Source: Crocosphaera watsonii WH 8501 (GTDB taxonomy: Bacteria > Cyanobacteriota > Cyanobacteriia > Cyanobacteriales > Microcystaceae). From it: a DNA stretch of 64,000 nucleotides. A model generated the notes under the pieces. The model was not told the origin of the DNA, did not search any database, and saw only the letters and a program-made list of their open reading frames with translations. Both the position numbers and the translations under genes were made by a program. Position 1 is the stretch's first letter. Each line of letters opens with the position of its first letter. Below, piece by piece: positions 6,780 through 63,845 of the stretch. The stretch spans positions 434,001 through 498,000 of the forward strand of contig NZ_AADV02000001.1 in the NCBI RefSeq assembly GCF_000167195.1, written 5' to 3'.

Positions 6780-6789
6780 TTTGAAAAAG

Positions 6790-6826: not shown

Positions 6827-7362
6827 CGCTTATAACGCCGTTTTTTTGGCTTTTTCTGAGACTGTTTAAAATGACTAACAACAATATCACTTATACTATG
6901 ACTCATGGCACCTAATTCTAACCCAATAAAGGTAATAAGTGCTTCCCCTAAATATTGATTTTTTAGCAATTGAAAGTTAGTTTCTGCAACCTCACGCCAA
7001 TTCCAATTAAACCCCCAAATGAATTGAGCGATCGCAATTACAAAAACAGCTACAATCAAAACAATAATGAAGATATAAATAATTCGTATCACCGTTCCTA
7101 CGATTAACCCATGAGAGAAAAAAGAACGATGTTTTAAACAAGACTGATAGGGGAACCAAACCCAGCGTATCATCCCCCAACGTTTATACTGTATAGAATA
7201 AATATCCAAGTCAGGACCAAACATTAAGCCACTGAATAAATACGCAGCACTAAACCATAATAGCCATTCCCATTGACGAGTGAGAATATAGGTTATGACC
7301 GCCAAGGGAGGTAAACTAAGATAGGTGATGCGATCGTGAGTACGGCCAGAAGGCATGATCAT
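6814..7362 (-). CDS. DUF2227-type putative metal-binding membrane protein
   Basis: A 182-residue integral membrane protein. The N-terminal P-S-G-R-T-H-D-R-I-T, the G-P-D-L-D block near residue 49 and the C-L-K-H-R-S-F-F-S-H-G block near residue 77 carry the conserved His/Asp residues of the DUF2227 family, which resembles YdjM-like membrane hydrolases. Four hydrophobic segments are visible, and the C-terminus is strongly basic (K-K-P-K-K-R-R-Y-K-R-K-K-K). The start could be the ATG at 7362 or the one two codons later, which matches the family start M-P-S-G-R-T-H better. It converges on the ndh operon. The exact biochemical role is unknown. Confidence 0.8.
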   Translation of the reverse strand: MIMPSGRTHDRITYLSLPPLAVITYILTRQWEWLLWFSAAYLFSGLMFGPDLDIYSIQYKRWGMIRWVWFPYQSCLKHRSFFSHGLIVGTVIRIIYIFIIVLIVAVFVIAIAQFIWGFNWNWREVAETNFQLLKNQYLGEALITFIGLELGAMSHSISDIVVSHFKQSQKKPKKRRYKRKKK

Positions 7363-7477
7363 CAGTTATGAGTTATCAGTTATTCTCAAAGACGGTTATT
7401 GGTTGTGAAGTTTCCCGAAAAAATAAAAAAGGTTGGCTTTTTCCGATAGATGTGTTACGATAACAAAGCATGAGCAA

Positions 7478-7549
7478 GGGCGATTAGCTCAGCGGTAGAG
7501 CTCCTGCCTTACAAGCAGGCTGTCACTGGTTCAAATCCAGTATCGCCCA
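7478..7549 (+). tRNA. tRNA-Val (anticodon TAC)
   Basis: A 72-nt cloverleaf. The acceptor arms GGGCGAT and ATCGCCC pair fully, the D-arm is TAGCTCAGCGGTAGAGC, and the anticodon stem CCTGC/GCAGG encloses loop CTTACAA with anticodon TAC. The T-arm GGTTCAAATCC is normal. CCA is not encoded, as usual in cyanobacteria. Confidence 0.97.
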
Positions 7550-7621
7550 CTACTATTAAAACCTCCGAGGTACCCTAACTAAAATCCGTTACAGTTGGGG
7601 ACTTCTTTTGACATTTTAGTT

Positions 7622-8870
7622 GTTGAACTTCCCTCGCTGAAAGACGAGGGATTCCCATATAGACTCTTAACTAGACTACTGAAATAGTCCCCGTCAGACC
7701 GCCATTACTGGGCTGTTTAACCACGGGCGCACCGACCGCGTCTTGGTGCAGCTCGGTCTTGGGGGTTTCCCCCAAGACCGAGCTGCACCGCAGTTTGCTC
7801 TAAACCTCTTTGTTTTCTTATTAATGAAGCTGCAACGTCTCTATCTTGTTCATAGCCACATTCAAGACATTTATGAACTCTTACATCTAGCTCTTTTTTC
7901 CCTGTATGTGTTCCACAATTAGGACAAATTTGCGAAGTGTAATCTTTATCAACTTTGGCAAAATATGTATCTGTTTGACTACAAACATATTCTAGTATAG
8001 TGAAAAATTGACCTATTCCCATATCTAATGATTGTTTACAAAACATACCTTTAGACCATGAATTGAAGTTAATATCCTCTACAAATATCATTCCTGATTC
8101 TTGGCAAAGTTGATGAGATAATTTGAAATGATAATCTTTCCTTCTATTAGCTACCCTAATGCGTGACCATGAGGACTAGGCAATGGTACATCAACATCAA
8201 GTTAAATCATCAAATTAACATAATAACCAGATGCTTTTTTTATGATTTGGGCTTGTTTGATCTTAAACCCATCAGGAATATCCCTGGATTTCTTTAACTT
8301 AATATTTTTAAGCAAAGGTATCTTGAGGTAACTGCCATTTAATTCAATTTTATTGCTAATTAGGTTAAAAGACTTCATTTTCTTTTTATATCGAGGAAAA
8401 CCCATTCCTTTAGATTTCATGTCATTAAATGCTCTATCTAATTTCCGCAATGTTTGCTGCATAGCTTGAGCATTACCTGACTTAAGCAAAGGATTAGTCT
8501 TTTTTGCCTTGGTTAACTCAGTAGATTGAAAATGGTAAGCGCGGATATTCAAATGGTTCAACAATATATTCAGAGTAAAGTGAACATTTGTTTATCTCGC
8601 AACTACGAGAGTTAAACCAAAGCTTTCTAATATAGAGAGCGTAATTCCAAACAGACTTACAAACATTTAGATTATGTTCAATTACTTCTATTTGTTTTTT
8701 CGTTGGCTGTAACTTGTAGTTGTAAGTTAGATTTAGCATTTCGACAGAGATGCTTATGTTGATATACTAATCCTATCACAACTTTTACAAAGCAATAGCT
8801 TAAATTGTAAAACTAAATCCGCTTACATCCCTTCACGGGACGTGAGGGTCTTACGCTCCCTAGATAAAAA
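7622..8870 (-). mobile_element. IS200/IS605-group element with degraded tnpB, no tnpA
   Basis: The right end lies at the left: a hairpin CTCGTCTTTCAGCGAG (minus-strand reading) is followed by GGAAGTTCAA. The left end, at 8780-8870, holds a CACGTCCCGTG-type hairpin. In between is a broken tnpB. There are no terminal inverted repeats, as expected for this group. Exact ends are estimates. It lies just downstream of the thioredoxin-reductase-like gene. Confidence 0.75.
7717..8739 (-). pseudogene. tnpB: tnpB (RNA-guided nuclease of IS200/IS605), frameshifted and internally deleted
   Basis: Three pieces in different frames. 8518-8739 has the N-terminus (N-L-T-Y-N-Y-K-L-Q-P-T-K-K-Q). 8202-8564 has the middle (G-F-P-R-Y-K-K). 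7717-8091 has the C-terminal half, with I-F-V-E-D-I-N-F (RuvC Glu), a C-P-N-C...C-L-E-C zinc ribbon and D-R-D-V-A-A (RuvC Asp). Between 8091 and 8202 the part that should hold the first RuvC Asp (L-D-L-G) is missing. A full-length relative in this window is about 427 residues, so this copy cannot be active. The end (G-G-N-P-Q-D-R-A-A-P-R-R) is low-complexity and probably not ancestral. Confidence 0.85.
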
Positions 8871-8879: not shown

Positions 8880-9837
8880 TTACGAATGATCCCAATCCCG
8901 TTTAATACCCTCACGTTTATTAAGGAATCTATCGATAGACATTGCGGCAATACAGCCATCTCCTGCGGCAACTACTGCCTGTTTAAACGGGGTATTGCGA
9001 ATGTCACCAATAGCCCAAACTCCGTCCACATTGGTTGCCATCATGTCATCTACTTTAACCCCACCATTGTCGAAGAATTCGATCTGAGGACTGACAAAAT
9101 CTGTAATTGGTCTGGAACCGCTTTGATAGACAAAAACTCCCTCTACTGGTAGAGAAGACTCTTTTTGGCCCTCCTTTGGTTTTCATCAAAATATTGGTGA
9201 CCCCTGCTTCATTACCTTCAACACGAAGCAAACGGGTAAAATTCCAGTGTTTCACATTAGGCTGACTTAGTAATTGTTGAACATGAGTATCTTCTAGTTC
9301 TGGTTCTTTATTGGTGAGCCAGTGTACAGTAGAAGCGAATTTAGTTAAGAATTGAGCCTCTTCGACTGCCTCAGTATTCAGTCCATATACAGCCACTTCT
9401 CTCTCTTTATAGAAGGCACCATCGCAGGTGGCACAATAGCTAACACCCCGGCCCAGAAACTCCGATTCCCCTCGTAGGGAAGAGGTTCTTCCCATAGCTC
9501 CTGTAGCCAAGACCAACGCTCGTCCCATAAAAGTTCCTTCTGGGGTATAAACTTTTTTAAGTGGGCCTTCCACGTCAATACCAAACACCTGCGCTCTTTG
9601 ATAGGTAGTGCCAAATGAGATAGCTTGTTCTCGCATGACATCTAGCAAACCATCACCACTAATATCCCCTGCTACTCCCGGATAGTTGGCAATTTTGTGG
9701 GTGATTGCTAAGGCTCCCACTGCTGGATTCTTATCTAGAATGACTGTCTTAAAATCTGCACGAGAGGTATATAAGGCACAGCTACACCCAGCCGGTCCAC
9801 CGCCAATAATGACCACATCAAATTCGTAAGTTTCCAA
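8880..9837 (-). pseudogene. Thioredoxin-reductase-like flavoprotein, single-base frameshift
   Basis: Two-domain disulfide oxidoreductase of the thioredoxin reductase family. The FAD motif I-G-G-G-P-A-G is at residues 11-17 and the redox pair C135-A-T-C138-D-G is intact. The nucleotide-binding motif expected near residue 150 reads Y-G-L-N-T-E-A instead of G-G-G-x-S-A, so NADPH use is doubtful; this resembles the cyanobacterial diflavin-linked (DDOR-type) branch. The frame is lost near 9162-9166 (an A5 run in the sense strand). Removing one A restores the normal C-terminus with N-G-G-V and W-A-I-G-D-I-R and a stop at 8880. The start is the TTG at 9837, after AGAGGAAC. A genuine mutation or a sequencing error in the homopolymer are both possible. 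Confidence 0.85.
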
Positions 9838-10023
9838 AATCTATGTTCCTCTAGGATGATATCTACTAACTCTCTAGTCTAAGTCTACAGAGCGTTAAAG
9901 TTAAGATAGACAGAAGTGATCATATCTACCCAACTCTTTCTAAGCAAAAAAATCTCAGATAAAAGGACAGCAAAGTTATGGGTAAAGTCACAAACACAAT
10001 TTTCTGATGTTTTAGAGCAGAAG

Positions 10024-10096
10024 TGGAGCTAAGCGGACTCGAACCGCTGGCTTTCACAATGCCATTGTGACACTCTACCAACTGAGTTATAGCCCC
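10024..10096 (-). tRNA. tRNA-Ala (anticodon GGC)
   Basis: A 73-nt cloverleaf on the minus strand. The acceptor pairs GGGGCTA with TAGCTCC, including the G3-U70 pair that identifies alanine tRNAs. The anticodon stem TCACA/TGTGA encloses ATGGCAT (anticodon GGC). The T-arm reads GGTTCGAGTCC. CCA is not encoded. Confidence 0.97.
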
Positions 10097-10202
10097 TAGT
10101 AAAGTTCCGTTGAGAACTTACTTCAATAATGCGCATTAACAATGATGCCCTAATTTATAGTGCCTTGTCAAGTCTTTAATCATAATCTTTGGTGACATAA
10201 CT

Positions 10203-10895
10203 TCAAATCCTTTGTAATAAGTTAGGACCGTGGGTATCTGTGCCACAAGTGTGATATAGTCCGTAAAAAGAACTGAGACTTAATACTGTTTCTGTCTGAC
10301 GAGGGCTAGGTTTCCAGGGTTTGGGGTTATTATAAGCATAAAAAGCTTCTACCCCGTCAATACCTAGTTCAACAGCCACAGGAATTACTTTTGTTGCTGG
10401 ATGACGGTATCTTTCGGGATGGGCTAAAACCGCCATTCCTCCTGCTTGATGAATGGCCTCGATGACATTAACCGCTAAACCTTGACTTCCACTTCGAGAC
10501 TCTCCTGTGAGGTAAGGTTGGATGGCTGGATGTTCGGAATCAAAAGCATATCCTAAAATATGAACTTCAACATCCAGTAAACTAGAGGTTATCTCAATAC
10601 CCGTCCACAAATGAGGTAAACTATCCTTTGGTGTTTCTAGGGATGTTCTTTGGAGCCAATTTTGAGCAACTTTATAACCTTCAACGGAATGATGATCAGT
10701 GATAGCGAGTCCTTTGAGTCCAATGTTTGTTGCTTGTTCAATCAGTTGTTCAGGGGTCAGTTGCCCGTCAGAACACTTGGTGTGCATATGAAAATTATAC
10801 TCATAGGGACAACTATTGGCAGTCAGTCTTAACCAGACTTCTTGCAGTGCCTGAGTGTCTTGGGACGATGGTTTCGTTGTCGTTGAAACGATCAT
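10203..10895 (-). CDS. PHP-domain phosphoesterase
   Basis: A 230-residue protein made almost entirely of a PHP domain, the metal-dependent phosphoesterase fold also found in DNA polymerase III and RNase AM (YciV). Metal ligands are seen in order: F-H-M-H-T-K-C-S-D-G near residue 35, I-T-D-H-H-S near 66, G-I-E-I near 98, H-I-L-G-Y near 112, L-A-H-P-E-R near 154 and G-T-D-T-H-G near 218. All nine usual His/Asp/Glu positions appear present. The substrate is unknown; YciV-type enzymes remove 5' nucleotides from RNA or nucleoside bisphosphates. The first 25 residues are not part of the domain, so a downstream start is possible. It is divergent from the DUF4129 operon. Confidence 0.85.
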   Translation of the reverse strand: MIVSTTTKPSSQDTQALQEVWLRLTANSCPYEYNFHMHTKCSDGQLTPEQLIEQATNIGLKGLAITDHHSVEGYKVAQNWLQRTSLETPKDSLPHLWTGIEITSSLLDVEVHILGYAFDSEHPAIQPYLTGESRSGSQGLAVNVIEAIHQAGGMAVLAHPERYRHPATKVIPVAVELGIDGVEAFYAYNNPKPWKPSPRQTETVLSLSSFYGLYHTCGTDTHGPNLLQRI

Positions 10896-11134
10896 AATAG
10901 CTAATGGTAATCCGTTAAAGATTGCGATTTGTTACATATTGGTAACATTTCTCAGTATAAAATATTTTTAGTTGATCCGTTGTGATCTATAACGCAAACT
11001 TTATCTTAAAGTGTCGGACCATCGACCCTCGGTTTTACAGATGGGATGAAAATCCGACCAACAAACAAACCTATTTTAGCTTCTTTAAACAAACTTTACC
11101 GTCACAGTTACCTTGTGTAAGCTAAAATAGAACC

Positions 11135-12452
11135 ATGCTAACTATGACCTACGAATTTAAGCTGCAACCAACTCCTGAACAGATTGCCATCATCGAGCAA
11201 ACTCTTGATGTATGTCGTTCTGTCTGGAATTTTGCCCTACGTCAGCGCAAAGATTGGTGCGCCTCTCGTAAGTCCCCTATCAATGCTTGCTCCCTCAATT
11301 GTGAATATATCATCTCTGCTGATGCCCCTTTCCCAAATTACCATAGGCAAGCCAAGCAACTAACCGATGCTAAAAAGCAATATCCTCAGTTAAATACAGT
11401 CCATTCTCAAGTTCTTCAGCAAACTTTAAGAACTTTGGACAGAGCTTGGGATGACATGAGAGCCAGAGGTTTTGGTTTTCCACGCTTTAAGAACAAGTAT
11501 CGTCTGCGTTCGTTTGTATTCCCACAGTTGGGGAAAGACCCCATAAGAAATGATGCTCTTAAGCTTCCCAAACTAGGATGGGTTGAGTGGCGACTATCTC
11601 GACCGATACCAGAAGGCTTTGAAGTTAAGCAAGCTAGGGTGGTTAGAAAAGCATCTGGTTACTTTGTAGGTCTGTCACTACAGTTAGATGTTGATGTCCC
11701 ATCCCCCCTAACCCCCCTTAGTAAGGGGGGAATGAAAGGGGGGATTGGTCATCCTAGAGGGTTAGATTTAGGATTTGAAAAGTTTGTGGCTACTTCCGAC
11801 GGTGAAGAGATTAAACGGCCTAGATTTCTTACGACTTTACAACGCAAGGTTGAATTACTGCAACGTAGGTTGAAGAACAAAGAGAAAGGCTCGAATAATC
11901 GACACAAGTTAAACCAGAAAATAGCTAGGCTACATCAACGGATAACTGACACTCGCAAAGACTGGCATTTTAAGTTGGCTCATCATCTTTGTGATGGTGT
12001 GGGTATGATCTTTGTAGAAGATATCAACTTTGTCAGTTGGCAAAGAGGGATGCTTTCAAAACATAGTGCTGATGCTGGTTTTGGACAATTTTTCAATATC
12101 TTAGAGTGGGTATGGTTATCAAGGGATGTGTATTTTGCCAAGGTAAATAAAGACGGCACATCCCAGACCTGTCCTAACTGTGGCGCACACACAGGAAAGA
12201 AAACTTTAGATGTCAGGGTTTCACCACTGTCATGAGTGTGGGTACACAACTACAAGAGATGTAGCAGCTTCTCAAGAAATTAGGAATCGAGGCATAACCT
12301 CCGTCGGGCAGATGGTAGCGGGTCGGCTTACGTCCTTTGAGGAAACCTCACAGGCGTTGGGACCCAAAAATGTCTGTGGACTCAGAGCAACGGGGCGCAT
12401 CACACGGGATGCTCTAGTTGGTGGGGGACGAAGCAGAAAACTAGCATCGTGA
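11135..12452 (+). pseudogene. tnpB: tnpB with one late frameshift and an in-frame palindromic insert
   Basis: The first 361 residues or so read well: N-terminus M-T-Y-E-F-K-L-Q-P-T-P-E-Q, first RuvC motif G-L-D-L-G-F-E-K-F-V-A-T-S, then I-F-V-E-D-I-N-F and the first zinc-ribbon pair C-P-N-C. At about 12219-12221 an extra T shifts the frame. The rest (H-H-C-H-E-C-G-Y ... T-R-D-V-A-A-S-Q-E-I-R-N-R-G) continues in the next frame to 12452. Residues encoded by 11700-11748 (S-P-L-T-P-L-S-K-G-G-M-K-G-G) come from a C-rich/G-rich palindrome absent from the related tnpB at 56751. The last RuvC Asp is lost in the shifted product, so it is probably inactive. Confidence 0.88.
11700..11748. repeat. Palindromic repeat inserted in frame within tnpB
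   Basis: Arms are ATCCCCCCT...CCCCCCTTA and TAAGGGGGG...AGGGGGGAT around a one-base centre, with small interruptions. The same type of element stands free at 26225-26269. Within tnpB it adds about 16 codons without breaking the frame. Confidence 0.8.
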
Positions 12453-23892: not shown

Positions 23893-25899
23893 CCCAGATT
23901 CCGCACTTCAAAAAGTAGCATTAAATACTACAAGCCTGGGTTTAATAATTAAGTATAATTGCTTAAGCTCTTGAAGACAAAAAAGTGGGATAATTGCTTA
24001 AGTTGTTTCCTCTGTAAAAAAAGAGCGAAAAATGTCTTATTTAGAAGAAATACAAGTTAAAAATTTAGACCATTTAGGGATAGTAGCTGGTTTAATTGAT
24101 GAAATAGGAATAGTCAAAATAATTAATAATAAATTAGGAATAGATGTTAGAGAAAAAATCTCAGCAGGTACAGTAGTTAAGTCTATTTTAATCAATGGAC
24201 TAGGATTTGTTTCAAGACCTCTATATTTATTCAGTCAGTTTTTTCAAGATAAAGCCATTGAGAAATTGTTAGGAGAAAGAATTAAACCTGATTACCTTAA
24301 TGATGATAAAATTGGGAGAGTAATGGATGAATTATATAAATATGGACTAAATGATATTTTTATTGAAGTAGTTTTAGAAGTAATTAAAAAAATTGAAATA
24401 GACCTTAAATACTCCCATTTAGATTCCACATCATTTCATTTAGATGGAGAATATAAAAGGGAAGAAGATAAAGAGAAACAGGAAGAAGAAAAAATTATTA
24501 AAGAAAGACCAATTTTTATTAAGAAAGGATATTCTCGGGATCATAGACCAGACTTAAAACAATGTGTCTTGGATTTAATAACAAGCCAAGATGGAGATAT
24601 TCCATTATTTGTGAGAGTAGGAGATGGAAATGAATCTGATAAAGCTGTATTTGGAAAAGTTTTAGTAGAATTCAAAAAGCAAATAAAGTTTGATAGTATC
24701 ATGGTTTGTGATAGTGCTTTATATGGTCAAGAAAATCTCCAACTAATCCAACATTTAAAATGGATAACGAGAGTTCCAATGACCATAAAAAAAGCAAAAG
24801 AATTAGTGCAAAATATAGAGGTGGAAGAAGTAAAAGATGAAGATAAAGAAAAAAGAAGTGACCTAAATTTAGAAAGTTATACCTGGAAAGAAGAAATTGT
24901 TACTTATGGTGGAATCAAGCAAACTTGGTTAATAGTCTTGAGTGAAAAAAGACAGAAAAGTGATTTGGAAAAACTAGAAAAACAACTTTCCCAAGAAGAG
25001 AAGAAATCCCAAAAATTTCTTAAAGAAATACAATCTGAAGAATTTGAACATCCTCAAGCTGCTCGATATAAATTAAAAGCTATTAATAAAAAATTGAGAT
25101 TGTTGGAAATAAAAGAAGTTGAACTGACTGAAACTTACTCGAAAAAAAAGGAAAAGATTTATAAAATGATTAGTCTGATCATCAAAAAAGATGAAGAGAT
25201 AAGTAGAAAGACTAAAGAAGCAGGAAAATTTATTTTAGCAACTAACTTAGTAGAGGAAAATAAATTAGAAGCTAGTGAAATTCTGATAACTTATAAAAAC
25301 CAGCAATCTACGGAAAGAGGATTTCGATTTTTGAAAGATCCCTTATTTTTTACTGATAGTTTCTTCGTTGAAAAACCAGAAAGAATAGAAACAATGTTAT
25401 TTTTAATGTCTTTGTGTTTGTTGATTTATAACTTGGGGCAAAGAGAATTAAGAAATTGTTTAAAAAGAGTCAAAAAAGGAATAAATAATCAAGTAGGGAA
25501 AGTAACATTGCGTCCGACTTTGAGGTGGATATTTCAATGTTTTCAAGGTATTCATTATGTGATTTTAAACGGAGTTAAACAAATTGTCAATTTAACAGAA
25601 GAAAGGCGTTTTATATTGAGTTTATTACCTGCATCTTGTCAAAGATATTATCTATAAATTGAATTGGATAAAGCAAAAATAATAAAAGAATAAGAGTCTA
25701 ATGATATCAAATGAGAAGAGGAAACTCTCCTTCGTTTGTGCTGAGTCTTGCTAAGTTTTCAATGAGTATAAATCTTCTTAATTTGATTATTTTTCCTAAA
25801 AATTTAATGAAAAGAGAAATATTCTTGCCCAGGTATGATTTTCGGACTTTTTAAAACTATGTATTTTTTTATACTACATTTTGAAGTGCGGAATCTGGG
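23893..25899 (+). mobile_element. IS1634-type (IS4 superfamily) element, about 2.0 kb
   Basis: Terminal inverted repeats: left CCCAGATTCCGCACTTCAAA at 23893, right the same sequence reversed ending at 25899, extending to about 26 bp with one mismatch. It holds one long transposase gene. The flanks TTCGAG (left) and TTAGAG (right) do not form a perfect duplication, suggesting a rearrangement after insertion. Confidence 0.88.
24032..25657 (+). CDS. IS1634-family transposase
   Basis: A 541-residue DDE transposase. The DUF4277-type N-terminal region (N-L-D-H-L-G-I-V-A-G-L-I-D-E-I-G) is followed by the catalytic domain with D in H-L-D-S-T-S-F-H near residue 131, D in M-V-C-D-S-A-L-Y near residue 228, and the Y-x2-R...E-like region Q-Q-S-T-E-R-G-F-R-F-L-K-D-P near residue 428. 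A long lysine/glutamate-rich insertion with coiled-coil character spans about residues 310-390. The frame is intact, so this copy could be active. Very AT-rich codon use. Confidence 0.9.
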   Translation: MSYLEEIQVKNLDHLGIVAGLIDEIGIVKIINNKLGIDVREKISAGTVVKSILINGLGFVSRPLYLFSQFFQDKAIEKLLGERIKPDYLNDDKIGRVMDELYKYGLNDIFIEVVLEVIKKIEIDLKYSHLDSTSFHLDGEYKREEDKEKQEEEKIIKERPIFIKKGYSRDHRPDLKQCVLDLITSQDGDIPLFVRVGDGNESDKAVFGKVLVEFKKQIKFDSIMVCDSALYGQENLQLIQHLKWITRVPMTIKKAKELVQNIEVEEVKDEDKEKRSDLNLESYTWKEEIVTYGGIKQTWLIVLSEKRQKSDLEKLEKQLSQEEKKSQKFLKEIQSEEFEHPQAARYKLKAINKKLRLLEIKEVELTETYSKKKEKIYKMISLIIKKDEEISRKTKEAGKFILATNLVEENKLEASEILITYKNQQSTERGFRFLKDPLFFTDSFFVEKPERIETMLFLMSLCLLIYNLGQRELRNCLKRVKKGINNQVGKVTLRPTLRWIFQCFQGIHYVILNGVKQIVNLTEERRFILSLLPASCQRYYL

Positions 25900-26004
25900 T
25901 TAGAGAATGCCCGTTCAACAGGAGATTTAGGTTTAGCTTATCCCATTGAAATTGTCATCAAAAAATTACAGGAATGGGGAATATTGAAAGGAGTTCGGAA
26001 TTAG
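25900..26004 (+). pseudogene. C-terminal remnant of an unrecognised gene
   Basis: Directly right of the IS1634-type element an open frame of 34 codons (N-A-R-S-T-G-D-L-G-L-A-Y-P-I-E-I-V-I...) ends at TAG 26004. It reads like the end of a real protein cut by the element or by a deletion. Its last codons run into a GGAGTTCGGAATTAG repeat. I do not recognise the family. Confidence 0.4.
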
Positions 26005-26351: not shown

Positions 26352-27074
26352 ATGATTATGAAAAAGAAAAAATTACTTTTATCCCGTTTATTTCCCTTCT
26401 TCATCAGTGTTTATCTATTAAATATGACAAGTTTAACTGCTAATGCTTGTCCCACAGGTAGACCAAGAGATATTAGTTATATTCGTCGAGATAATAACCG
26501 TTGTGAGGGAATATTAGATAGTCGACCTATTAGTAATAATTTTGAATTAGTTGCCTTTTCTAGCAGCAATCTTACTAATTATCCTGATACCCTAAAAATT
26601 AGAGTTCCTGGTACGGGAAGAGATAAACCAATTATTAGTATTCAATCTTATACAAAAAATTATCGATTGGATGAAGTAGAAGCAATATATAGGGATTCAG
26701 GATTTATATTTGATCTCAAAACAAATACTATTTTACAACGGGTTAAAATTCCTTTTAATAGTTTATTACCTTTGGCTTTTGTTGAAAAAAATTCTAGAAG
26801 GATTTATTATCCTGTAATTTTAGAACAACCATCAAACGCTTATAAATTTGTTATATATACGCGCAATCGCCGAACTTTTCCCAAAGTAGAAATTAGTCAA
26901 AACGGTAGAATTATTCCCAGTAATCTCCAACCGAGAAATATTCCCAAGCGAGGACAAATTACCTTTGATTGGCAACCTAGAAATAACCCGGCAGGAACCT
27001 ATCAATTTTATTTAGAAGATGGTAATGGAAGATCCATAAGTTTTTCTTTTAAACATGATCTCAATTGGTTATAA
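26352..27074 (+). CDS. Secreted protein of unknown function, module protein A (copy 1)
   Basis: A 240-residue exported protein. Residues 3-32 form a signal peptide (basic K-K-K-K then a hydrophobic core, ending T-A-N-A). The mature N-terminus starts C33-P and carries D-I-S-Y-x-R-R and C51-E-G-I; the two cysteines, 18 residues apart, probably form a disulfide. The C-terminus ends F-K-H-D-L-N-W-L. A paralogue at 60458-61192 shares C-P, S-Y, R-R, C-E-G-I with identical cysteine spacing and the end F-F-H-D-P-Q-W-L. Followed after about 190 bases by the membrane-anchored partner, also duplicated. I do not recognise a described family; the role is unknown. Confidence 0.75.
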   Translation: MIMKKKKLLLSRLFPFFISVYLLNMTSLTANACPTGRPRDISYIRRDNNRCEGILDSRPISNNFELVAFSSSNLTNYPDTLKIRVPGTGRDKPIISIQSYTKNYRLDEVEAIYRDSGFIFDLKTNTILQRVKIPFNSLLPLAFVEKNSRRIYYPVILEQPSNAYKFVIYTRNRRTFPKVEISQNGRIIPSNLQPRNIPKRGQITFDWQPRNNPAGTYQFYLEDGNGRSISFSFKHDLNWL

Positions 27075-27262
27075 ATTATTCATTATTTTTTGATAAAATC
27101 TAAACGGTAGGGTGGGAAAATCAGAAATTTATCTTAACAACTCATCATCTATAAAATTTTGCCCACCTAAAAAAATGGTTGTTAATTGTACTTTTAAAAA
27201 AAGATTATAACTTCTAATTTTTGACTACTATTCTACCTCAAATTTATAAATTTGATGCTTCT

Positions 27263-28480
27263 ATGGCTAATATATTTGACCGTTTTAAAGAAAAATTTGA
27301 TAATTGGTATGGTTCCTTAACAACGATTAGAACCATAGATAAATTTTTTGCTATTTTTTTGTTAACTATTTGGATTATTATTCTTGTTAGTTATTTTATT
27401 CCAGGTAATTATATTTTTGAAGGAAACTTAATCATTGAATCTTTAAACTTTACCTATAATGGAAATGATGATAAACTTTTTTTACAAAAGATTGAAGCTA
27501 TTAAATCTATTGATTTTCAAGGAAAATTAGAACAACCCATTGCTTTATCTGGGACTTTTTCCACTGATAATGATCCTGAGTTACAAAATAAGTTAGCTAA
27601 CATCGATACATTAACCGTTGAATTACCTTTTCCTGAAAGTCGTTTTATTATTAATCAGAAAAATAATCTAGAAACAACACAAGTATCATTAATTGAACTA
27701 CGAATTGAACCAGAAACAAATATTAATCAACTAAATTATAACAATACAAATAATAGTTTAGAATTTTGTTTGCATTCAATAAAACATAGTTCAGAATATT
27801 GTGAATTTCCTGAAAATATCGATAATTATGAGCTACCTGTTAACATAGGTCAATTAAGATTAGAATTAGGACAAGATACCCTAGAAATACAACTGGGACA
27901 AATTAATATTCCTGAACTCAATCTTAATCGCACAGAAGAAATAACTCTACAATTTACCCCTAATAATAATGACACAATAAATATAAATTTACTCTCCTCC
28001 CATCAATTATTTATTACCTTACCTAAAGAAAAAGATGAAAATAATGCAATAACCTGGTTTAGAAAAGATATTGATGTCAAAAATGTTCAATTTAGTCGCT
28101 ATAAAACAACACAAATAGTTACAGATGAACTAAAAATATCAACCATTTTACAAGGAGAAATACGCTTGGGTAAAGAGAAAATAGAGCTAGAAAAAAATCA
28201 ATTTTTAACAACCAAATCACCAGAAACAGCCATAAGAAAAATTAGATCCTTAACCATCACAAATGATCCGAAATTACCCCCAGGAATACAAACATTTATT
28301 ACAGGAGAAACTAATAGTATTTCCGTAGGACTTTATCCTGATTTTCCCGTAGAAAGCATCCAACCTAACCTCTTATCGAAACATCTATCCTCAGAAGCAA
28401 TCACAGCTATTATCACCTTCATAACTACCCTAACAGCAGTTTTCCTACCCCGTCTCTTCCCCTACTCACCCGACGACTGA
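27263..28480 (+). CDS. Double-anchored periplasmic protein, module protein B (copy 1)
   Basis: A protein of about 405 residues with an N-terminal membrane helix (A-I-F-L-L-T-I-W-I-I-I-L-V-S-Y-F near residue 30), a 330-residue extracytoplasmic region rich in beta-forming sequence, and a C-terminal helix (A-I-I-T-F-I-T-T-L-T-A-V-F-L). Right after the first helix is Y-I-F-E-G-N. The paralogue at 61199-62443 has the same layout with Y-F-E-G-E and a similar region preceding the last helix (L-Q-G-E-I-R-L then Q-F-L). I prefer ATG 27263; an in-frame TTG at 27221 would add 14 residues. No enzyme motif seen. Probably acts with protein A at the cell envelope; inference. Confidence 0.72.
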   Translation: MANIFDRFKEKFDNWYGSLTTIRTIDKFFAIFLLTIWIIILVSYFIPGNYIFEGNLIIESLNFTYNGNDDKLFLQKIEAIKSIDFQGKLEQPIALSGTFSTDNDPELQNKLANIDTLTVELPFPESRFIINQKNNLETTQVSLIELRIEPETNINQLNYNNTNNSLEFCLHSIKHSSEYCEFPENIDNYELPVNIGQLRLELGQDTLEIQLGQINIPELNLNRTEEITLQFTPNNNDTININLLSSHQLFITLPKEKDENNAITWFRKDIDVKNVQFSRYKTTQIVTDELKISTILQGEIRLGKEKIELEKNQFLTTKSPETAIRKIRSLTITNDPKLPPGIQTFITGETNSISVGLYPDFPVESIQPNLLSKHLSSEAITAIITFITTLTAVFLPRLFPYSPDD

Positions 28481-55810: not shown

Positions 55811-56584
55811 TATGGTAGAATGTTTAATTACTGGAAAATTTGATGATAGTGGGTCTTTTCCCATTGATGGAAAAGTAGTGGTGACACTAGATGCACCTTT
55901 GATTGCTACAGACATGACTGTCCATCTCCCTATCCCCCAAGAATATCCATTTACTAATGGTGAGTTTTCATTTACCCTAGAATCCTCAGACACACAGCAG
56001 ATAACTTATTTCTTTGAAGTCTATAATCAGTTAGACGACTTATCTTACCCTGTTGAGGCTATCTATAGTTTTCATTCAGTAGTGCCTGTACTGACTGAGG
56101 TTAATTTCAGGGATTTAATACCCTCTCAGATTTCTACTGACCAGTTACCCTCAAACATTCGCCGTCTTCTACAACTCATTGCGTTTGACCCCAACTATAA
56201 TAACCTTTTAAGATGGGGTAGACCTGCTGGTTTCTATTCTCCCTCTACTCCTTATGTTTACGGTGATATTGTAACTTATGACGGTAGTAGCTACCTTTGC
56301 ATCAACGAAAATGGTGCTTTAGGCGATAATCCTTCGATTGTTGAGAATGAATACTGGCAGCCATTAGGAATTCGTGGTGAGCCGGGTACTGGTACAGGTG
56401 GTAATGACACACCGTTTTCTTTTGCAGCGTGGACATCACAAACCGATGCACCCACTAGGAATACCTTGTCTAATGCTCTCATTGACCGTAATGACCCTAG
56501 AGTTGTTGACCTCAGTGATGGTATTGACCTTGACACTTTACCCGATGATAAGTTAGTCCCTGCAAAATATTTAACTAAAATGTC

Positions 56585-58055
56585 GGGCTAAGTCCCACCC
56601 TATAAACGAGGGGGATACATCGAACCGCAGGTGAGTACCCCCAATGTTTTAGGGTTGGTATACAGCCCGACCAATGTATTAACGTGCTACAGCACAACCT
56701 TGCTTAAAAAGTTGTACTACCATGTTATTTTTTTATGGTAGAATGTTATCATGACTCCAACACTTAACTACTCATACCGAATTTATCCTGATAGCAAACA
56801 AGAGACAATGTTAGACGAATGGCTAGAGATTTGTCGTCGTTCCTATAACTATGCCTTGCGAGAGTTAAAAGACTGGATTGCTTCGAGAAAGTGTCCAATA
56901 GATCGGTGTTCGTTGGAGTCAGAATATATTATGGCTGCAAGCTATCCTTTCCCTGGCTATCACCAGCAACAAAACCAATTACCAAAGGCTAAAAAAGTAT
57001 TTCTTGAATTAGCTAAAGTGTCAAGCCAAGTCTTACAAACTAACATAAGAAGATTACATGATGCTTGGGATTTCTTTCGTAATAGAGGTTTTGGCTTTCC
57101 GAGATTCAAAAAGTATGGACAGATGAAGTCTTTGCTGTTTCCTCAATTCAAAAGCAATCCCTTAACTGGATGGCAAATAAAATTACCAAAATTGGGAAAA
57201 GTTCAAATTAACCTTCATCGTCCAATACCTGATGGTTTTGTCATCAAGCAGATACGAGTTGTTAAGAAAGCAATGGGATGGTTTGCCGTAATTAGTATCC
57301 AGTCAGACATTAACTTACCTGAAGTTAATGCTCCTTTTGGGCATCCTTTAGGGTTAGATGTTGGGTTATCTAGTTACTTAGCTACCAGTGATAACTATGT
57401 AGAAAAAGGGCGTAAATTCTTCAAGACCGAACACCGTCGGCTGAAAGTGCTACAACGTCGGTTAAGTAGAAAACAAAAGCGTTCTAATAACTACGAGAAG
57501 GCTCGGAAAAAGGTAGAAAAGCAACACAATCATATTGCTTTCAAGCGTAAAGATTACCAATTCAAATTAGCGCATAAAGTCTGTGATATGGGAGACAGTA
57601 TCTTTATGGAAGATATTGACTTTCGCACAATGGCTAAGGGCTTTCTGAGTAAGCATACTCTAGATGCAGGTTTTGGGCAATTCAGGGATATTCTGAAATA
57701 TGTATGTTTGATAAGGGGCAAATATTTTGGATTAGTTGACCACCGAGGAACTAGCCAAACCTGTCCTAATTGTCGTACAGAAGTTAGGAAAACTCTTTCT
57801 GATAGAGTTCATGATTGTCCTGAATGCCACTATCGCTGTGACCGTGACGTGGCATCAGCCCAAGAAATCTGTAATCGAGGCATAGAAACTACTACTCTGG
57901 GACTCAGAGGAAAGGAAACCGTCTGTCAAGTCGAGGTGTCGGGGGTGATGAGCCTAGATAACTGGCGTAGGGGAATACCTCTGTGGGCAGAAATATCCCG
58001 TCGTGAGTCGGGAAGCCCACGCTATACTGCCTAGCAGTTAGCGTGGGAGGATGTC
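56585..58055 (+). mobile_element. IS200/IS605-group element with intact tnpB, inserted in the tail-fibre gene
   Basis: The left end starts GGGCTAAG directly after ATGTC (56580-56584) and closes a long hairpin at AGCCCGACC. The right end has CCCACGCTA/TAGCGTGGG followed by AGGATGTC (58055). Length 1471 bp. The left start and right end match the element at 11016-12491. No tnpA. Confidence 0.9.
56751..58034 (+). CDS. tnpB: TnpB RNA-guided nuclease
   Basis: A 427-residue protein, the only undamaged tnpB here. N-terminal Y-S-Y-R-I-Y-P-D-S-K-Q-E; G-F-G-F-P-R-F-K-K-Y near residue 118; RuvC residues D in G-L-D-V-G-L-S-S-Y near 203, E in I-F-M-E-D-I-D-F near 286, D in D-R-D-V-A-S near 364. The zinc ribbon is C-P-N-C...C-P-E-C. 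A 50-residue tail (after N-R-G-I-E-T-T) overlaps the guide-RNA region. TnpB proteins cut DNA next to a short target motif, guided by RNA from the element's right end, and so help keep the element at its donor site. Confidence 0.93.
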   Translation: MTPTLNYSYRIYPDSKQETMLDEWLEICRRSYNYALRELKDWIASRKCPIDRCSLESEYIMAASYPFPGYHQQQNQLPKAKKVFLELAKVSSQVLQTNIRRLHDAWDFFRNRGFGFPRFKKYGQMKSLLFPQFKSNPLTGWQIKLPKLGKVQINLHRPIPDGFVIKQIRVVKKAMGWFAVISIQSDINLPEVNAPFGHPLGLDVGLSSYLATSDNYVEKGRKFFKTEHRRLKVLQRRLSRKQKRSNNYEKARKKVEKQHNHIAFKRKDYQFKLAHKVCDMGDSIFMEDIDFRTMAKGFLSKHTLDAGFGQFRDILKYVCLIRGKYFGLVDHRGTSQTCPNCRTEVRKTLSDRVHDCPECHYRCDRDVASAQEICNRGIETTTLGLRGKETVCQVEVSGVMSLDNWRRGIPLWAEISRRESGSPRYTA

Positions 58056-58075
58056 ACCTAACTTAGTTCTTGATG
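57880..58075 (+). ncRNA. Predicted omega-RNA (TnpB guide RNA) with guide segment
   Basis: The scaffold is the tnpB 3' end plus the right-end hairpin (57900-58055); the guide would be the flanking host sequence from 58056 (ACCTAACTTAGTTC...). By analogy with described IS200/IS605 systems; not visible as a transcript in DNA alone. Confidence 0.5.
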
Positions 58076-58771
58076 ATGATGTCGTTAACATCATCTATAT
58101 TGATGACCAAGGTGATTTACGAAAATCATCGACCGCCCCACAAGTAGGATTATTGATTGCAAGGGCAGAAACCAGTGGTGGTTCTATATCAGGGCAAATT
58201 GAAGACTTAAGGCCGAATGTTAATATGCTGGTTCAACCACTCGTTGACAATGTCGGTTCTATAATACCGAAATCGAGTATTGTAGTATTCGGTGGTGCGG
58301 TTGCCCCTAACGGTTGGTTATTTTGTGATGGTACACCTTATGACCCTTCTACTTATCCTCAGTTATTCAGTGCCATTGGTTATGGTTTTGGTCAGGTGGG
58401 TTCATTATTTCGTGTACCTGACATGAGGGATAGAAGTCCCGTCGGCGCGGGTATCTCCTTCGATAGAGGCACTTTCGGAGGAAGTGCTACAACGAGTTTA
58501 TCTGTGGATAATATGCCAGCGCATAGTCACAACGTCATTGACCCAGGACACACTCATTCTATGAATCACGGCCCGGGGCAACATTCCGCTGTTGCCTTAG
58601 ACTATCATAATGCGGGTAATGGAGTTGATGCTTATGTTCCACAGTGGGGAGGGCATGCCCATACTATTTATGCAAGCGGTGTAGGGATATCATTAGAAAA
58701 CACTGGCAGTGGTACGCCAGTGTCTGTTCGTAACCCTTATGTAGGGTTTGCTGAAAAAGTTTCTCCAAAAT

Positions 58772-60298
58772 TTATGCCACTTTTGACCAAGAATTTTCTG
58801 ACAAATCAATAAGTTTTAGTACATAAAAATTGTTTAAAGTATAATCAAAATTAATGAAAGGCGGTTTGATGAGTTCCCCTGTTCTATTATTAGTGAATAA
58901 GGACAAAAAAAGCGACACAAACTGCCTCAGAAGTTTAGAAAGATTGACAACTAAAAATGTAATATCAATAGATGTAATGGAGGTTTCAGGGAGTTTTGTT
59001 ATCACGAAATTTAGGCTAAATCTTCGTTTAGCTTGTCCAAACTTTCCCTCAATAGCATTACGGAAGCATTCATCGGAGTGGGCTTGTTTCTTTTCTTCTT
59101 CACTGACATTTTTCGGAGGTCTTCCTAACTTCGGATCACTGATTCTTATCCCTCTTTCCTTACACCAATTTCTGTTTTCCCTAGTTCGATAAATTTTATC
59201 TACATGGACGGATTCGGGATAATAGCCAAACGTTTCTTTATACTTTTCTACTTGTTCTTTTAAATGACAAGATTCATTGAAGTTTTCCCAACTTATTTTG
59301 TCTAGAAACACATAGTTATCTACACAGCTTACTGAGAGTTTAGCTCCAAACTCTATTGGTTTTCCTGCTTTTCCCCTCACTATTGGACGAATATGCGGTT
59401 GAGTTAAACTTACAATTCTTTGAGGAACACTCTGGGTCTTATTCTCCCACATTGACTGTTGTTGTTCATAAACTTTTTTGATAGTCTCTAGACAATTTTT
59501 CTGTTTTTTACTCAGATTTTCCAGGGAAGCCCCAGCTTGAATTAAGTCTTCTATATTTCCTAAATTTTTCTTAAGGTATTTTAACTGTTTCCCGATAGCT
59601 TTTCTTCTTTCTTGATAAGATACTTTTCGTTTTTTAGCTACTTTTAAGTATTCCTTTCTAGCAATTTTTCTAGAAGTTCTCGGCTTTTTTCTCAATTTTA
59701 CTCTTAATGGTTTATAAAGATTATCTATTATTCTTTCTGTCTCAATTCTGGCTTGATTTAATATGCCTAAATCCGTTGGGTATTTGATGTCTGCTGGCGC
59801 ACAAGTCGCATCTAAAATTAGTTTACCTTTGTTTTTTATTTTTTCTCCTTTTTCTTGGAGACAATCCTTTTTTTTTACTTCTTTATCACTCTTGTCTATT
59901 TCTCTTTTTACTATTTTTTTATTGATTTTGTTTATCAATTCTCCATCAATTCTTTTCCTAAAATGAACTAGCATTGAAGATTCCAGTGGTGGCTCTTGTT
60001 GATAACAATTTAAACCTATAAAGTATTGTAGATAGGGATTTTCTCTAATCTGTTCTATAGTTTCTCTATCACTTGTTCCTAATTTTTCCTTAATAATTAA
60101 TGTCCCTAATGCCATTCTAAATAGTTTGGCTGGCGCACCTTTTTCTGCTGAAAAAAGTTTAGCATATTCTTCCTCAAAATCATCCCAAGGTATCAACTCT
60201 GCCATGATTACCCAACGATTATTGGGGGACAATTTGCCCTCGAAAGGTAATTCAAATTTTTCTGGGGGCGGTAAAGGTTGCTCCTCTTTTCGATACAT
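58772..60298 (-). CDS. IS5/IS1182-type transposase
   Basis: A 508-residue DDE transposase. The DUF772-type N-terminal domain reads G-A-P-A-K-L-F-R-M-A-L-G and I-R-E-N-P-Y-L-Q-Y-F-I-G. Catalytic residues: D in L-I-L-D-A-T-C-A-P near residue 162, D in S-V-H-V-D-K-I-Y near 355, E in N-A-I-E-G-K-F-G-Q near 421. A lysine-rich middle (residues 200-270) is typical of this subgroup. The frame is whole, so possibly active. The last codons (K-V-A-stop) come from, or next to, phage DNA. Confidence 0.88.
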   Translation of the reverse strand: MYRKEEQPLPPPEKFELPFEGKLSPNNRWVIMAELIPWDDFEEEYAKLFSAEKGAPAKLFRMALGTLIIKEKLGTSDRETIEQIRENPYLQYFIGLNCYQQEPPLESSMLVHFRKRIDGELINKINKKIVKREIDKSDKEVKKKDCLQEKGEKIKNKGKLILDATCAPADIKYPTDLGILNQARIETERIIDNLYKPLRVKLRKKPRTSRKIARKEYLKVAKKRKVSYQERRKAIGKQLKYLKKNLGNIEDLIQAGASLENLSKKQKNCLETIKKVYEQQQSMWENKTQSVPQRIVSLTQPHIRPIVRGKAGKPIEFGAKLSVSCVDNYVFLDKISWENFNESCHLKEQVEKYKETFGYYPESVHVDKIYRTRENRNWCKERGIRISDPKLGRPPKNVSEEEKKQAHSDECFRNAIEGKFGQAKRRFSLNFVITKLPETSITSIDITFLVVNLSKLLRQFVSLFLSLFTNNRTGELIKPPFINFDYTLNNFYVLKLIDLSENSWSKVA

Positions 60299-60457: not shown

Positions 60458-61192
60458 ATGTCAAGAAATTCGTTGATTTTTTTAGTAAGTGGTTTAGTTT
60501 CTGCATTGATCTCTTTTTCTAGTTATTCTCAACCTTGTCCTAGTCCCAGCAATGTTTTGGATACCAGTTATAGTTGGAGGCGAACCCACTGTGAAGGAAT
60601 TAAGAAAGGAGAAGAAGAACAAACTCGTAACGGAAGTTTTCGTTTAGTTTCTTTCTCAACTGGGAAAATTCAGAAATATGATAATAGACTACACTTAAAC
60701 ATTCCTAGTAGTAACCCAAAGCAACTTAGATTAAAAATAGAATCTTGGTTTAACGATTATGAAGCAAATTGGCAAAAAGTTTCTCTTCCTTTCTCTTTAG
60801 AAACAAGAATTTTAAAACGGGAAAAAGTACCTCCAGAAAATTTAAGATTCCTTGCCTGGGAAAGGTTGAATAGTAATCAGAGTATCTATTTACCCGTTAT
60901 CCATAATAATAATACTGCAACCACTTATGAGATAGTTTGGTATAGTCGCCATAAGACTAACATTAATCTTTTTGAAATTAGAAGTCAAAGTAATTAAACT
61001 ATTTTTTCTTGTGGGGAGGATGTTAGTTATCCAGCTAATAATGAAATTTCCTGTCAATGGGAGGCTCAAAATACTCCAGTAGGAAAGTATTTAATGTATC
61101 TAGATATTGAACAATTTCCCTATAATAAAGATAAAAGAGAATTTACAAGAGAGATAACATTTTTCCATGATCCCCAATGGTTAAAGAAATGA
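60458..61192 (+). pseudogene. Secreted protein, module protein A (copy 2), one in-frame stop
   Basis: 244 codons in one frame with TAA at 60995-60997. Signal peptide residues 1-25 (L-I-F-L-V-S-G-L-V-S-A-L-I-S-F). The mature part starts C27-P and has T-S-Y-S-W-R-R and C45-E-G-I, the same 18-residue spacing as the copy at 26352. After the stop, the frame goes on: Q-W-E-A-Q-N-T-P-V-G-K-Y-L-M-Y-L, ending F-F-H-D-P-Q-W-L-K-K, matching the end of copy 1. The protein may be lost, or read through; the next gene begins seven bases later. Confidence 0.78.
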
Positions 61193-61198
61193 TAAGTT

Positions 61199-62443
61199 AT
61201 GAATATTGTTCAAAAACTGTTTACATTAATAGTCAAAATAGTAGAAATCTTAAAACACTTAATAAAAATACTCTGGGGATTTATTTCCAGTATTGTTATG
61301 ATTCTTTTAGGTGAACACAGAACCTTTTTTTTGAATTTAAAGCTTTTGATTGTTTCATTTTTATCAATCATTCTATTCTTTTTGACAAGTTTTTCGGCTC
61401 TTAATTATTTTGAGGGAGAAGTAATTACTAATCAGTTAACGTTCGTTTTAGATGAAAAGAAAAATTTTCTTAAAGGACTAGATGACCTTAATTTGAGAAA
61501 AATTAGTTTTTGGGGTTTACCTGAACTAGAATTATCAGGAGAAAAGTTTAATTATAAAAATTTTACTGAATTGAATCAAACAAAAGTTATTAAACTCAAA
61601 AAAAATGAAGGTCAAAATATTACTCCTCAACTGGAAATAAAATCATCTAATAAGGAACAAGAAAATTATTTAAAAGTTTTATTAATTGAGTTATCTAAAT
61701 CAATCGCAGTTAATTGTCTCAAGTATGATAAGAGTCGTAATTTAATTGAGTTGTATCTAGATTTTGATATTGCAAAATCCTGTTCTTTTCAAACAAATTA
61801 TAATGATTCAAAAAAAATTGCTGATATTGAAATTGAACTAGGTAATCAACCCTTTGATGTTACTTTACAGGGATATGAAATACAGCAACCCAAACTTCGT
61901 AATCAAACGAATTCAATGAAATTAGAATGGACACACAAATCTGGAAATAAAACCCTAGATTTTGAAGTGATTCACCCTCTTTTTATTGAACTAGAATTAA
62001 ATGAAGATGAAACTAAAGACAATGATATTCTGCTTCAAAGAATTTTATCAGTTACAGATACTCGCTTATTTCATCAAGAACAGAAAGATTATGTTACCAA
62101 CATTATCAAGGGTAGTGTTCGTATGACTGATCAAAAGCTGAATATTGAACCTAGTCAATTTCTACAGTTTCAAGGTGGGAAAGGAATTGAAAGACTATAT
62201 AATATTAGTCTAACTTCTCAAGGAATTAAAGTCTTGTTTAATGGAACTGCTAGAAAAGTTTTGAGTGGACTTAATTTTGACTCACCTGGTTATAATATTC
62301 GAGGTGAGTTTTTGGCTAAGTTTATGTCCAAAGAACAAAGAATTGCTATAATAGGTTTTTTAATAGCTATAGTTTCTACTCTATTAATAGAATGGATTAA
62401 AGAATTTTCTGAAAAATTATCTAATAATAACAATGAAGATTAA
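61199..62443 (+). CDS. Double-anchored periplasmic protein, module protein B (copy 2)
   Basis: 414 residues, intact. Membrane helix near residues 47-68 (L-L-I-V-S-F-L-S-I-I-L-F-F-L-T-S-F), then Y-F-E-G-E-V-I, a long extracytoplasmic region with two cysteines (near 178 and 198, also two in copy 1 at similar places), and a C-terminal helix near 381-399 (I-A-I-I-G-F-L-I-A-I-V-S-T-L-L). Paralogous in layout to 27263-28480. It follows protein A after seven bases and overlaps the protease gene by 11 bases, so all three form one operon. No enzyme motif; function unknown. Confidence 0.75.
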   Translation: MNIVQKLFTLIVKIVEILKHLIKILWGFISSIVMILLGEHRTFFLNLKLLIVSFLSIILFFLTSFSALNYFEGEVITNQLTFVLDEKKNFLKGLDDLNLRKISFWGLPELELSGEKFNYKNFTELNQTKVIKLKKNEGQNITPQLEIKSSNKEQENYLKVLLIELSKSIAVNCLKYDKSRNLIELYLDFDIAKSCSFQTNYNDSKKIADIEIELGNQPFDVTLQGYEIQQPKLRNQTNSMKLEWTHKSGNKTLDFEVIHPLFIELELNEDETKDNDILLQRILSVTDTRLFHQEQKDYVTNIIKGSVRMTDQKLNIEPSQFLQFQGGKGIERLYNISLTSQGIKVLFNGTARKVLSGLNFDSPGYNIRGEFLAKFMSKEQRIAIIGFLIAIVSTLLIEWIKEFSEKLSNNNNED

Positions 62444-63845
62444 CTTAAGTTTGTTTAAAATCTCATCTTCTATCATCAGTTTATTGGTGATGGTTGATAT
62501 TTTTACATTTACTCTGGTAAGTAATGCAGTAGAAAACAAAAAAGTGACAGCAGACTGTAGAACGATTCCTGATGTGGCAGATAATAGTACCGTAAAAATT
62601 AGTCCTGTTGACGATGAACCTAGTTCGGGGGTAATTATTTCTAAAAAAAGTAACATCTATACAGTTCTAACTGTTGCTCATGGTGTTAAATCTCAAGATA
62701 TATTAGATTATAACCCTCTTAAGATACAGTCACGATATGATGAATATAATGTTATCGCTGGTCAACTGTTAGATGAAGGAGTTAAATCTCTTGATTTAGC
62801 AATTATTCGTTTTGAAAGTTCAAAAAATTATATACCTATTATTTTTGGAAGTTCTCAACAAACTCAAAAATGGGATAAAGTAACTATTTTAGGTTATCCC
62901 ATTACTTCTACTAATAGGACTGGTCAACCACAAATTTATCCTCTAGAAACAACTCTTATAGAGATAAATGCTAACAGAGGAAAAGGATATGATATGAGTT
63001 ATGCTGGGAATGGATGGGAAGGAATGAGTGGGGGAGCTATTATTAATGATTGCGGTAGATTATTAGGGATTCATGGTAGAGGTGATAGTCTAGGAACAAT
63101 AAAAAATGAAGAAAGCAACGAAGAAATGTCCCTTAGAGGTCCCTTCGCAGCAGGTATTCCTATTGACTATTTTGTTAATTTATTACCTTTACCCAATTTA
63201 AAGATATCTGAAATTGCCATTAATATAAAACCTAATTTCAATTCATTAGTTAGTGAAGATGTACAAAAATCTTTCATTGATCTCGGTCTTTCTGAATTAG
63301 AGTCTAATAATTTGGGATCAGCAATTAGTTATTTTACCCAAGCTATTCAAAAAGATTCTAAAAATCATCTAGCTTATTCTTATTGAGGATTAAGTTATTC
63401 ATTGATTGGGGATAAGCAGCAGGCAATTAAAGACTATTCAAGAGCAATTGAGTTAAATTCTAACTTATCGAATGCTAGATACAATCGAGGGTTAATTCTT
63501 TCCCGTGATTTGAAACAATACGATGAAGCTTTAAGGGATTTTGAGGAACTAATAAAAAGAAACCCCAGAGATGCAGATGCTTTGTTTGAAAGAGGAAATA
63601 TTTATTTTCAAAAAGGAAATAAACAACAAGCATTAAATGACTATACGACTGCTATTCCTCTTAATAAACAGCTAGGAGACGCTTTTTATAATCGAGGAAT
63701 TATTTATCATCAAAAGAAGAAAAATGAGCAAGCTTTAGAAGATTTAAGACGTGCAAGAGATATTTTTGCATCACAGGAAAATCTTAAAAAGTTTGGTCGT
63801 GCTAATGATGCAATTATGGACATTCAAGGAGGAGTAAAGAAATAG
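62433..63845 (+). pseudogene. Trypsin-like (S1) serine protease with TPR repeats, one in-frame stop
   Basis: About 470 codons with TGA at 63384-63386 (A-Y-S-Y-stop-G-L-S-Y-S; an Arg CGA fits here). N-terminal signal/anchor residues 10-32. Catalytic triad H83 (V-A-H-G), D121 (L-D-L-A-I-I-R) and S199 (G-M-S-G-G-A-I). From residue 285, TPR units follow (N-N-L-G-S-A-I-S-Y-F-T-Q-A-I-Q) and four more after the stop (Q-Q-A-I-K-D-Y-S-R-A-I-E-L-N, A-L-R-D-F-E-E-L...). The protease domain could still be made as a shorter protein with one TPR. Overlaps protein B (copy 2), pointing to joint function at the envelope. Confidence 0.85.

Follow-up and report, generated by a model that had tools for sequence, protein, structure and literature searches.

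The window analysed here is a stretch of 64,000 nucleotides from Crocosphaera watsonii WH 8501 (contig NZ_AADV02000001.1, positions 434,001 to 498,000; C323:434001-498000), whose draft genome comprises 6,238,068 bases in 323 contigs. Close to the end of the window, three genes on the forward strand (60458-63845) code for a putatively exported protein (A), a protein with a hydrophobic stretch near each end (B) and an S1 trypsin-like protease with tetratricopeptide repeats (TPRs). Relatives of A and B are located at 26352-28480. We designate the latter copy 1 (A1, B1) and the three-gene set copy 2 (A2, B2).

In copy 2, the gene for A (60458..61192, +) predicts a signal-like N-terminus, a cysteine loop and a C-terminal region with the conserved tail of the family. 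Its first part, 60458-60997, is closed by an in-frame TAA at 60995-60997, and the frame runs on to a stop at 61190-61192. The gene for B (61199..62443, +) is an intact frame with about 310 residues between the two hydrophobic stretches. In the protease gene (62433..63845, +), the trypsin-like domain comes first (Trypsin_2, E 7e-13) and TPRs follow; 62433-63386 is closed by an in-frame TGA at 63384-63386, and the frame extends to 63845. An earlier note on this DNA, made from the letters alone, had described the same genes, and its gene-level claims were confirmed with small corrections: the two cysteines of A are 18 residues apart (C27 and C45), the helix proposed for each end of B agrees with the hydrophobic stretches of B2 and with a model of B1, the third protein does combine an S1 domain with TPRs, and B and the protease overlap by 11 bases, but the gap between A (read through) and B, given as 7 bases, is 6. 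A relative (locus L068, genome G005) holds the whole unit in this gene order intact (A 4528-5316, B 5323-6507, protease 6497-7930). This counterpart and the two nonsense codons support the suggestion that copy 2 is decaying, as judged from the reading frames; the stops in A and in the protease may be of recent origin or may be sequencing errors.

Copy 1 consists of intact frames for A (26352..27074, +) and B (27263..28480, +). B1 probably starts with the ATG at 27263, chosen by alignment with relatives; its longest frame would begin with a TTG at 27221. Over the aligned parts, A1 and A2 are 23% identical (E 6e-8) and B1 and B2 26% (E 7e-12), and the relationship between the two loci is therefore real. 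Copy 1 had been described as free of a protease and as the intact one of the two, and neither description held, because its protease gene is broken up by insertion sequences. In relatives (L021, L022), a TPR-S1 protease gene is located upstream of A. Upstream of A1, positions 25900..26004 (+) hold the last 34 codons (25900-26001) and the stop of such a gene (tblastn E 3e-11, 76% identity to residues 663-696 of the L021 protease), and this remnant is abutted by an insertion sequence (23893..25899, +) with 17-base terminal inverted repeats and a transposase at 24032-25657 (DUF4277/DDE_Tnp_1). A search of the own genome with the relative's protease placed residues 1-297 and 424-474 at C323:269185-270198, residues 471-669 at C254:3948-4544 and residues 663-696 in the window; none other of the 43 matches covered the trypsin domain. 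The pieces on either side of the first break are each joined to an insertion sequence that they have in common (99.5% identical over 1385 bases). At the second break, the window's element is joined to both pieces (99.4% over 2019 bases), and the six flanking bases, TTAGAG, are split, with the left copy on C254 and the right copy in the window. On one side, the first piece and the relative's protease gene share flanking sequence (95% over 130 bases). A gene read from its open reading frame (ORF) as homoserine dehydrogenase-like lies beside this piece and also beside the protease remnant of locus L115. The simplest reading is insertion into one gene, probably followed by recombination between copies of the elements. 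In a draft of this kind, part of the scattering may be misassembly at repeats, which could explain the scattering but not the breaks, because the break itself is seen at each junction. The remnant, the junctions and the other pieces rule out copy 1 as a natural protease-free form. The frames of A1, B1 and B2 stay open, and the search of this genome gave no intact protease of the unit, which leaves both Crocosphaera copies without one. Decay is also common elsewhere, with a truncated protease and B at L115/L023, B stubs in G034 and G046, and split or truncated genes at L203-L206 and L212.

Members of the two families were found in a minority of the genomes searched. Searches of 98 related genomes gave matches in 16 with B1 as the query and in 11 with A1. 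Family profiles detected B in 15 and A in 13 of 388 genomes of the class sample, and all 13 with A also hold B; in the two genomes with B and no A, the B frames were fragments of 133 and 82 amino acids at contig starts. B was present in 64/388 genomes of the order sample (fragments and solo genes included) and A in 15/386 genomes of the phylum sample. The spread of the unit in cyanobacteria is thus patchy.

Profiles for A, B, the trypsin domain and a TPR were run over the surroundings of 64 B loci in other genomes; short B fragments in ten genomes (G007, G010, G034, G046, G289, G435, G533, G591, G602 and G657) were set aside. A adjoins B at 51 of the 64 loci (48 genomes). At 45 of these 51, a same-strand trypsin domain was present upstream of A within 1.1 kb (truncated in one, L023), and at one (L068) the protease lies downstream. 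The remaining five were contig ends (L027, L196, L198) and degraded extra copies without a trypsin domain (L200, L212). Twenty-one of the 64 loci had been used to build the profiles and so match by construction. Among 29 A loci fetched after profile building, 25 had the upstream protease; this set includes L185 and L186, which are re-fetches of L117 and L118, also used for profiles. Since the survey began from B, adjacency was tested separately from the A side: three A searches name 26 genomes, the window's own included, and B adjoins A in all 26. Gene overlaps of 4 to 22 bases were common in the units. Pairwise distances of A, B and the trypsin domain correlated (r 0.92 over 25 loci, 0.87 and 0.83 over 21 loci; permutation p 0.0002 each), although part of this correlation is shared ancestry, and the values are those of the three unit genes alone. 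Taken together, a three-gene cell-envelope unit of cyanobacteria, formed by a protease with a TPR array, A and B, is well supported. The conserved module of a secreted, a double-anchored and an S1-TPR protein that had been anticipated is therefore there, but a protease following A and B, as in copy 2, is rare. Some neighbourhoods (L187, L197, L026) have two TPR-S1 protease genes, in tandem or flanking A-B.

At the other 13 of the 64 loci, which belong to two families, B stands alone, with neither A nor a same-strand trypsin match beside it. A was absent genome-wide from all 13 of these genomes by the same profile that detects it in the class and phylum samples. At solo-B loci L150-L156 and L031, the B frame is longer (about 490-540 amino acids); a measure of N-terminal length in solo B was discarded, its landmark being unreliable. 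At the three loci tested by profile (L151, L154 and L031, from three genera), DevA-like and DevC-like genes lie no more than a few kilobases from solo B, with matches below the NCBIfam curated cut-offs. The presence of these genes recalls the DevBCA exporters; unlike in an exporter operon, they are convergent or separate, with no single operon, and they were not noticed beside A-B-protease units. Besides, solo B at L025 (G094) is preceded on its own strand, at a distance of 22 bases, by a protein-kinase gene (the pair at 10417-11724 and 8922-10394), a pairing not seen in three family relatives, L153-L155, of which L155 starts near a contig end.

The units fall into two types. In type I the order is protease, A, B, and the TPRs precede the trypsin domain; in type II, A and B are followed by a protease with the trypsin domain before the TPRs. 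Copy 1 belongs to type I and copy 2 to type II, and among the loci surveyed type II was found only in copy 2 and L068, that is, in two genomes. When 25 B proteins were compared in a maximum-likelihood tree, W2 and L068, the type II pair, formed one group (support 100/100) that a long branch separates from the 23 type I sequences, and B1 (W1) was placed beside two Crocosphaera relatives; the tree was rooted at its midpoint, and its long branches make details unsure. By this placement the two copies are old lineages. The term "duplicated", used in the earlier note for the two loci, is therefore misleading, since the tree separates B1 from B2 and contradicts a recent duplication.

The ratio of nonsynonymous to synonymous substitution rates (dN/dS) between copy 2 and L068 was 0.46 for A, 0.34 for B and 0.44 for the protease, and between copy 1 and L021 it was 0.22 for A and 0.34 for B. 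Two genes downstream of copy 2, read from their ORFs as ATP synthase genes, gave 0.05 and 0.08. The module is thus faster-evolving than housekeeping genes and still constrained, although two unrelated neighbours of 243 amino acids gave 0.39 and 0.33, similar to the unit. When A and the protease of copy 2 were split at their stops and compared with the relative, dN/dS in A rose from 0.39 ahead of the stop to 0.73 beyond it, but in the protease it went from 0.49 to 0.32; relaxed selection past the stop therefore shows only in A.

Trypsin_2 was found in all 23 protease sequences scanned (22 loci) and TPRs in 22 of them; the exception, L095, starts at a contig end. Loose patterns for the catalytic His, Asp and Ser motifs were present in 44/44 extracted trypsin domains. 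Solved relatives of the protease domain (best E 8e-6) include chloroplast Deg5, MucD/DegP, DegQ, DegS and HtrA/HtrA1. The window protease shows no PDZ domain at E up to 1 (among the complete 3 families of its first part and the best 25 of 36 of its second), and neither do the L095 and L098 proteases in their complete results at E up to 0.01; the finding covers these three proteases, the scan of 23 members having given the best 25 of 90 families. Judging from these matches, the protease resembles HtrA/DegS, with TPRs in addition, and it is predicted to be exported.

Protein A has a signal-like N-terminus in 23/25 sequences, and the two exceptions look like overlong predicted starts. Its cysteine loop, C-x(15-20)-C-E-G-I, and its C-terminal tail, F-x-H-N-P-x-W-L (searched as H-x(2-3)-W-[LF]), were each found in 49 of 51 sequences, which came from 50 loci and copy 1, the A of L200 being too short to include. 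The most conserved windows were YIRRDNNRCEG in the cysteine loop and then ITFEHNPNWLK at the C-terminus. Pfam FlgD_ig matched the C-terminal part of 6 of 13 members (best E 1.8e-11), and NCBIfam gave weaker matches to FlgD; A1 gave 0 Pfam families at E up to 1, and FlgD_ig was also not found in the first part of A2. This part of A is thus like the flagellar hook-cap protein FlgD. Unlike FlgD, A has a signal-like N-terminus and a conserved cysteine loop, and the 13 members matched 10 Pfam families in all, none of them the N-terminal hook-cap domain. A model of the orthologue at L119 (pLDDT 73) was mostly beta and resembled immunoglobulin (Ig)-type sandwiches. In structure comparison it gave many Ig- or fibronectin (Fn)-like rows up to Z 7.1, macroglobulin domains included, which fit an Ig-type sandwich only and give no closer identity. 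From these sequence features, A is well supported as exported, with a cysteine loop followed by a C-terminal part of Ig type, like that of FlgD.

Protein B has a hydrophobic stretch in its N-terminal part in 25/25 sequences and near its C-terminus in 23/25, and in most of them the residues ahead of the first stretch carry more positive charge than those behind it. The B1 model has a helix at each end and beta strands between. B is thus predicted to be N-in/C-in, with a beta-rich periplasmic domain of about 310 residues. Profile scans of 14 members gave best matches of E 0.035 (Pfam) and E 0.0046 (NCBIfam), each in few members, and a fold search with the medium-confidence model found no PDB or viral match at E 0.001.

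Our best guess for the function, to which we give a probability of roughly 0.4, is tail-gated periplasmic proteolysis at a membrane platform. B would serve as the platform in the plasma membrane, and A would dock on B or on the protease and present its C-terminal tail. The TPR array, standing in for the PDZ domains of HtrA, would read this tail, which would switch on or position the protease, and the activated protease might then cut B or a periplasmic client. A role of A as ligand or substrate of the protease is suggested because it fits B standing alone, A never being seen apart from B, and A being mostly found with the protease. The earlier note had put forward, as a hypothesis, a sensing or surface-processing role in which A would bind B or some ligand and the protease might cut one of them. 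We infer the analogy with tail activation from the position and conservation of the tail of A and from the kinship of the protease. HtrA, DegS and AlgW are periplasmic proteases of the S1C group. The unit is like them in having an S1 protease with an export signal and with DegS, DegP and HtrA among its solved relatives, and AlgW is switched on by the C-terminal peptide of the periplasmic protein MucE (PMC8545111). It differs in having a TPR array and no PDZ domain seen, with the TPRs before (type I) or after (type II) the protease domain, and in having A and B as fixed genetic partners with no anti-sigma factor recognised. A wider proposal is that the unit is a second kind of tail-activated envelope proteolysis in cyanobacteria, in which the TPR array of an HtrA-type protease has replaced PDZ as reader of the F-x-H-N-P-x-W-L tail, B, of unrecognised fold, is substrate or transducer, and the circuit was built twice with opposite domain order. 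We consider this wider proposal unlikely.

Several observations weigh against tail-gated proteolysis. TPRs bind many partners, and the tail of A may be conserved simply for the Ig fold. The contacts, the cleavage and the localisation are all putative. B is without a sizeable cytoplasmic domain to carry a signal, and the reversed domain order of the type II protease means that the geometry cannot be strict. Glutamyl endopeptidases and SplD, none of them HtrA proteases, are likewise among the solved structures related to the protease domain, and a signal-like N-terminus was seen in 14/20 protease rows, some of the other six being contig ends or fragments. None of the six FlgD_ig matches is in the window's own A proteins, and confidence in the models is medium (pLDDT 73 for A and 75 for B, with five B models that differ widely, from 36 to 75). 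Also, A is not always with the protease: copy 1 keeps A without an intact one, and at L200 and L212 a part of A is left but no trypsin domain. In one family, three loci have the protease farther from A, with another ORF between them in L026, and the solo-B loci L153 and L154 have a weak trypsin-profile match nearby on the opposite strand.

Other functions may be considered for the same genes. In a surface complex, B would hold A as an Ig-like subunit with a structural or adhesive role, and the protease would mature or trim A or an outer-layer protein with no regulation by the tail. The export of A with an Ig/FlgD-type part is consistent with this, and the patchy spread, as seen for B in the order sample, and repeated decay fit an accessory surface trait. 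However, the tail and the cysteine loop are kept across many families, unlike in a fast-changing surface subunit, and no recurring cell-wall, pilus or S-layer gene was noticed beside the unit in ORF lists without gene-by-gene annotation, which makes surface assembly somewhat improbable. TPR arrays are common protein-binding scaffolds, and the presence of DegP, DegQ and DegS among the solved relatives would also suit general quality control, with a Deg-like chaperone-protease and two helpers degrading damaged periplasmic proteins. A and B are, however, specific partners mostly found together with the protease, and most sampled genomes, such as all but the 13 with A in the class sample, do without the unit; a general role of this kind is distinctly unlikely.

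The same patchiness, the two copies in some genomes and the frequent decay could point to a defence or conflict module, that is, an envelope protease triggered by contact with a phage or competitor. Trypsin-like domains occur with partner genes in known conflict systems (vWA-MoxR and iSTAND), cyanobacteria included (PMC7159879), but those systems are built on NTPases and effector domains, neither of which was seen here, and the unit has export signals. Moreover, PADLOC models matched only generic trypsin and TPR parts of three proteases and gave 0 families for five A and B proteins; no system had all of its core proteins matched, and a known anti-phage defence system was rejected. No sign of phage or plasmid carriage was seen with one A probe against phage records and one B probe against plasmid records. 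We regard a defence role as very unlikely. The chance that the three genes are merely hitchhiking, as neighbours by accident or through shared descent of a genome stretch, is minute. Some loci do share flanking genes within a genus, but the flanks differ between families (as read from ORF lists) while the trio stays together, often with overlapping genes. The 64-locus survey largely refutes such hitchhiking, and chance co-location is not a reasonable explanation.

No described counterpart of this gene combination was found in the profile libraries and open literature searched, and neither A nor B as a whole protein matches a characterised family, in agreement with the claim that no such system had been described. 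The three-gene envelope unit is apparently undescribed. It is compact and co-occurring, and includes two protein families without a whole-protein name in Pfam and NCBIfam. To our knowledge, little is known about the regulation of envelope proteolysis in cyanobacteria, and a peptide tail read by TPRs is a concrete hypothesis testable with purified proteins.

The surroundings of the type II unit differ between the two genomes. In L068, a gene for an MlaE-family lipid permease (3694-4485) is located 42 bases upstream of the intact unit, whereas in the window an ORF of 508 amino acids on the reverse strand (58772..60298) lies about 160 bases upstream of copy 2. The latter was read as a transposase from the ORF alone, and similar ORFs are present at other sites in the genome. 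Copy 2 is followed on the opposite strand by the two genes of 243 amino acids (from 63949 on in the window; 8949-9680 and 9751-10482 in L019), which have no Pfam match at E 0.01 and whose order is kept in L068. Farther upstream, at 55812-58812, the window contains phage-tail-like genes (tail fibre and tail collar matches) separated by a transposase gene.

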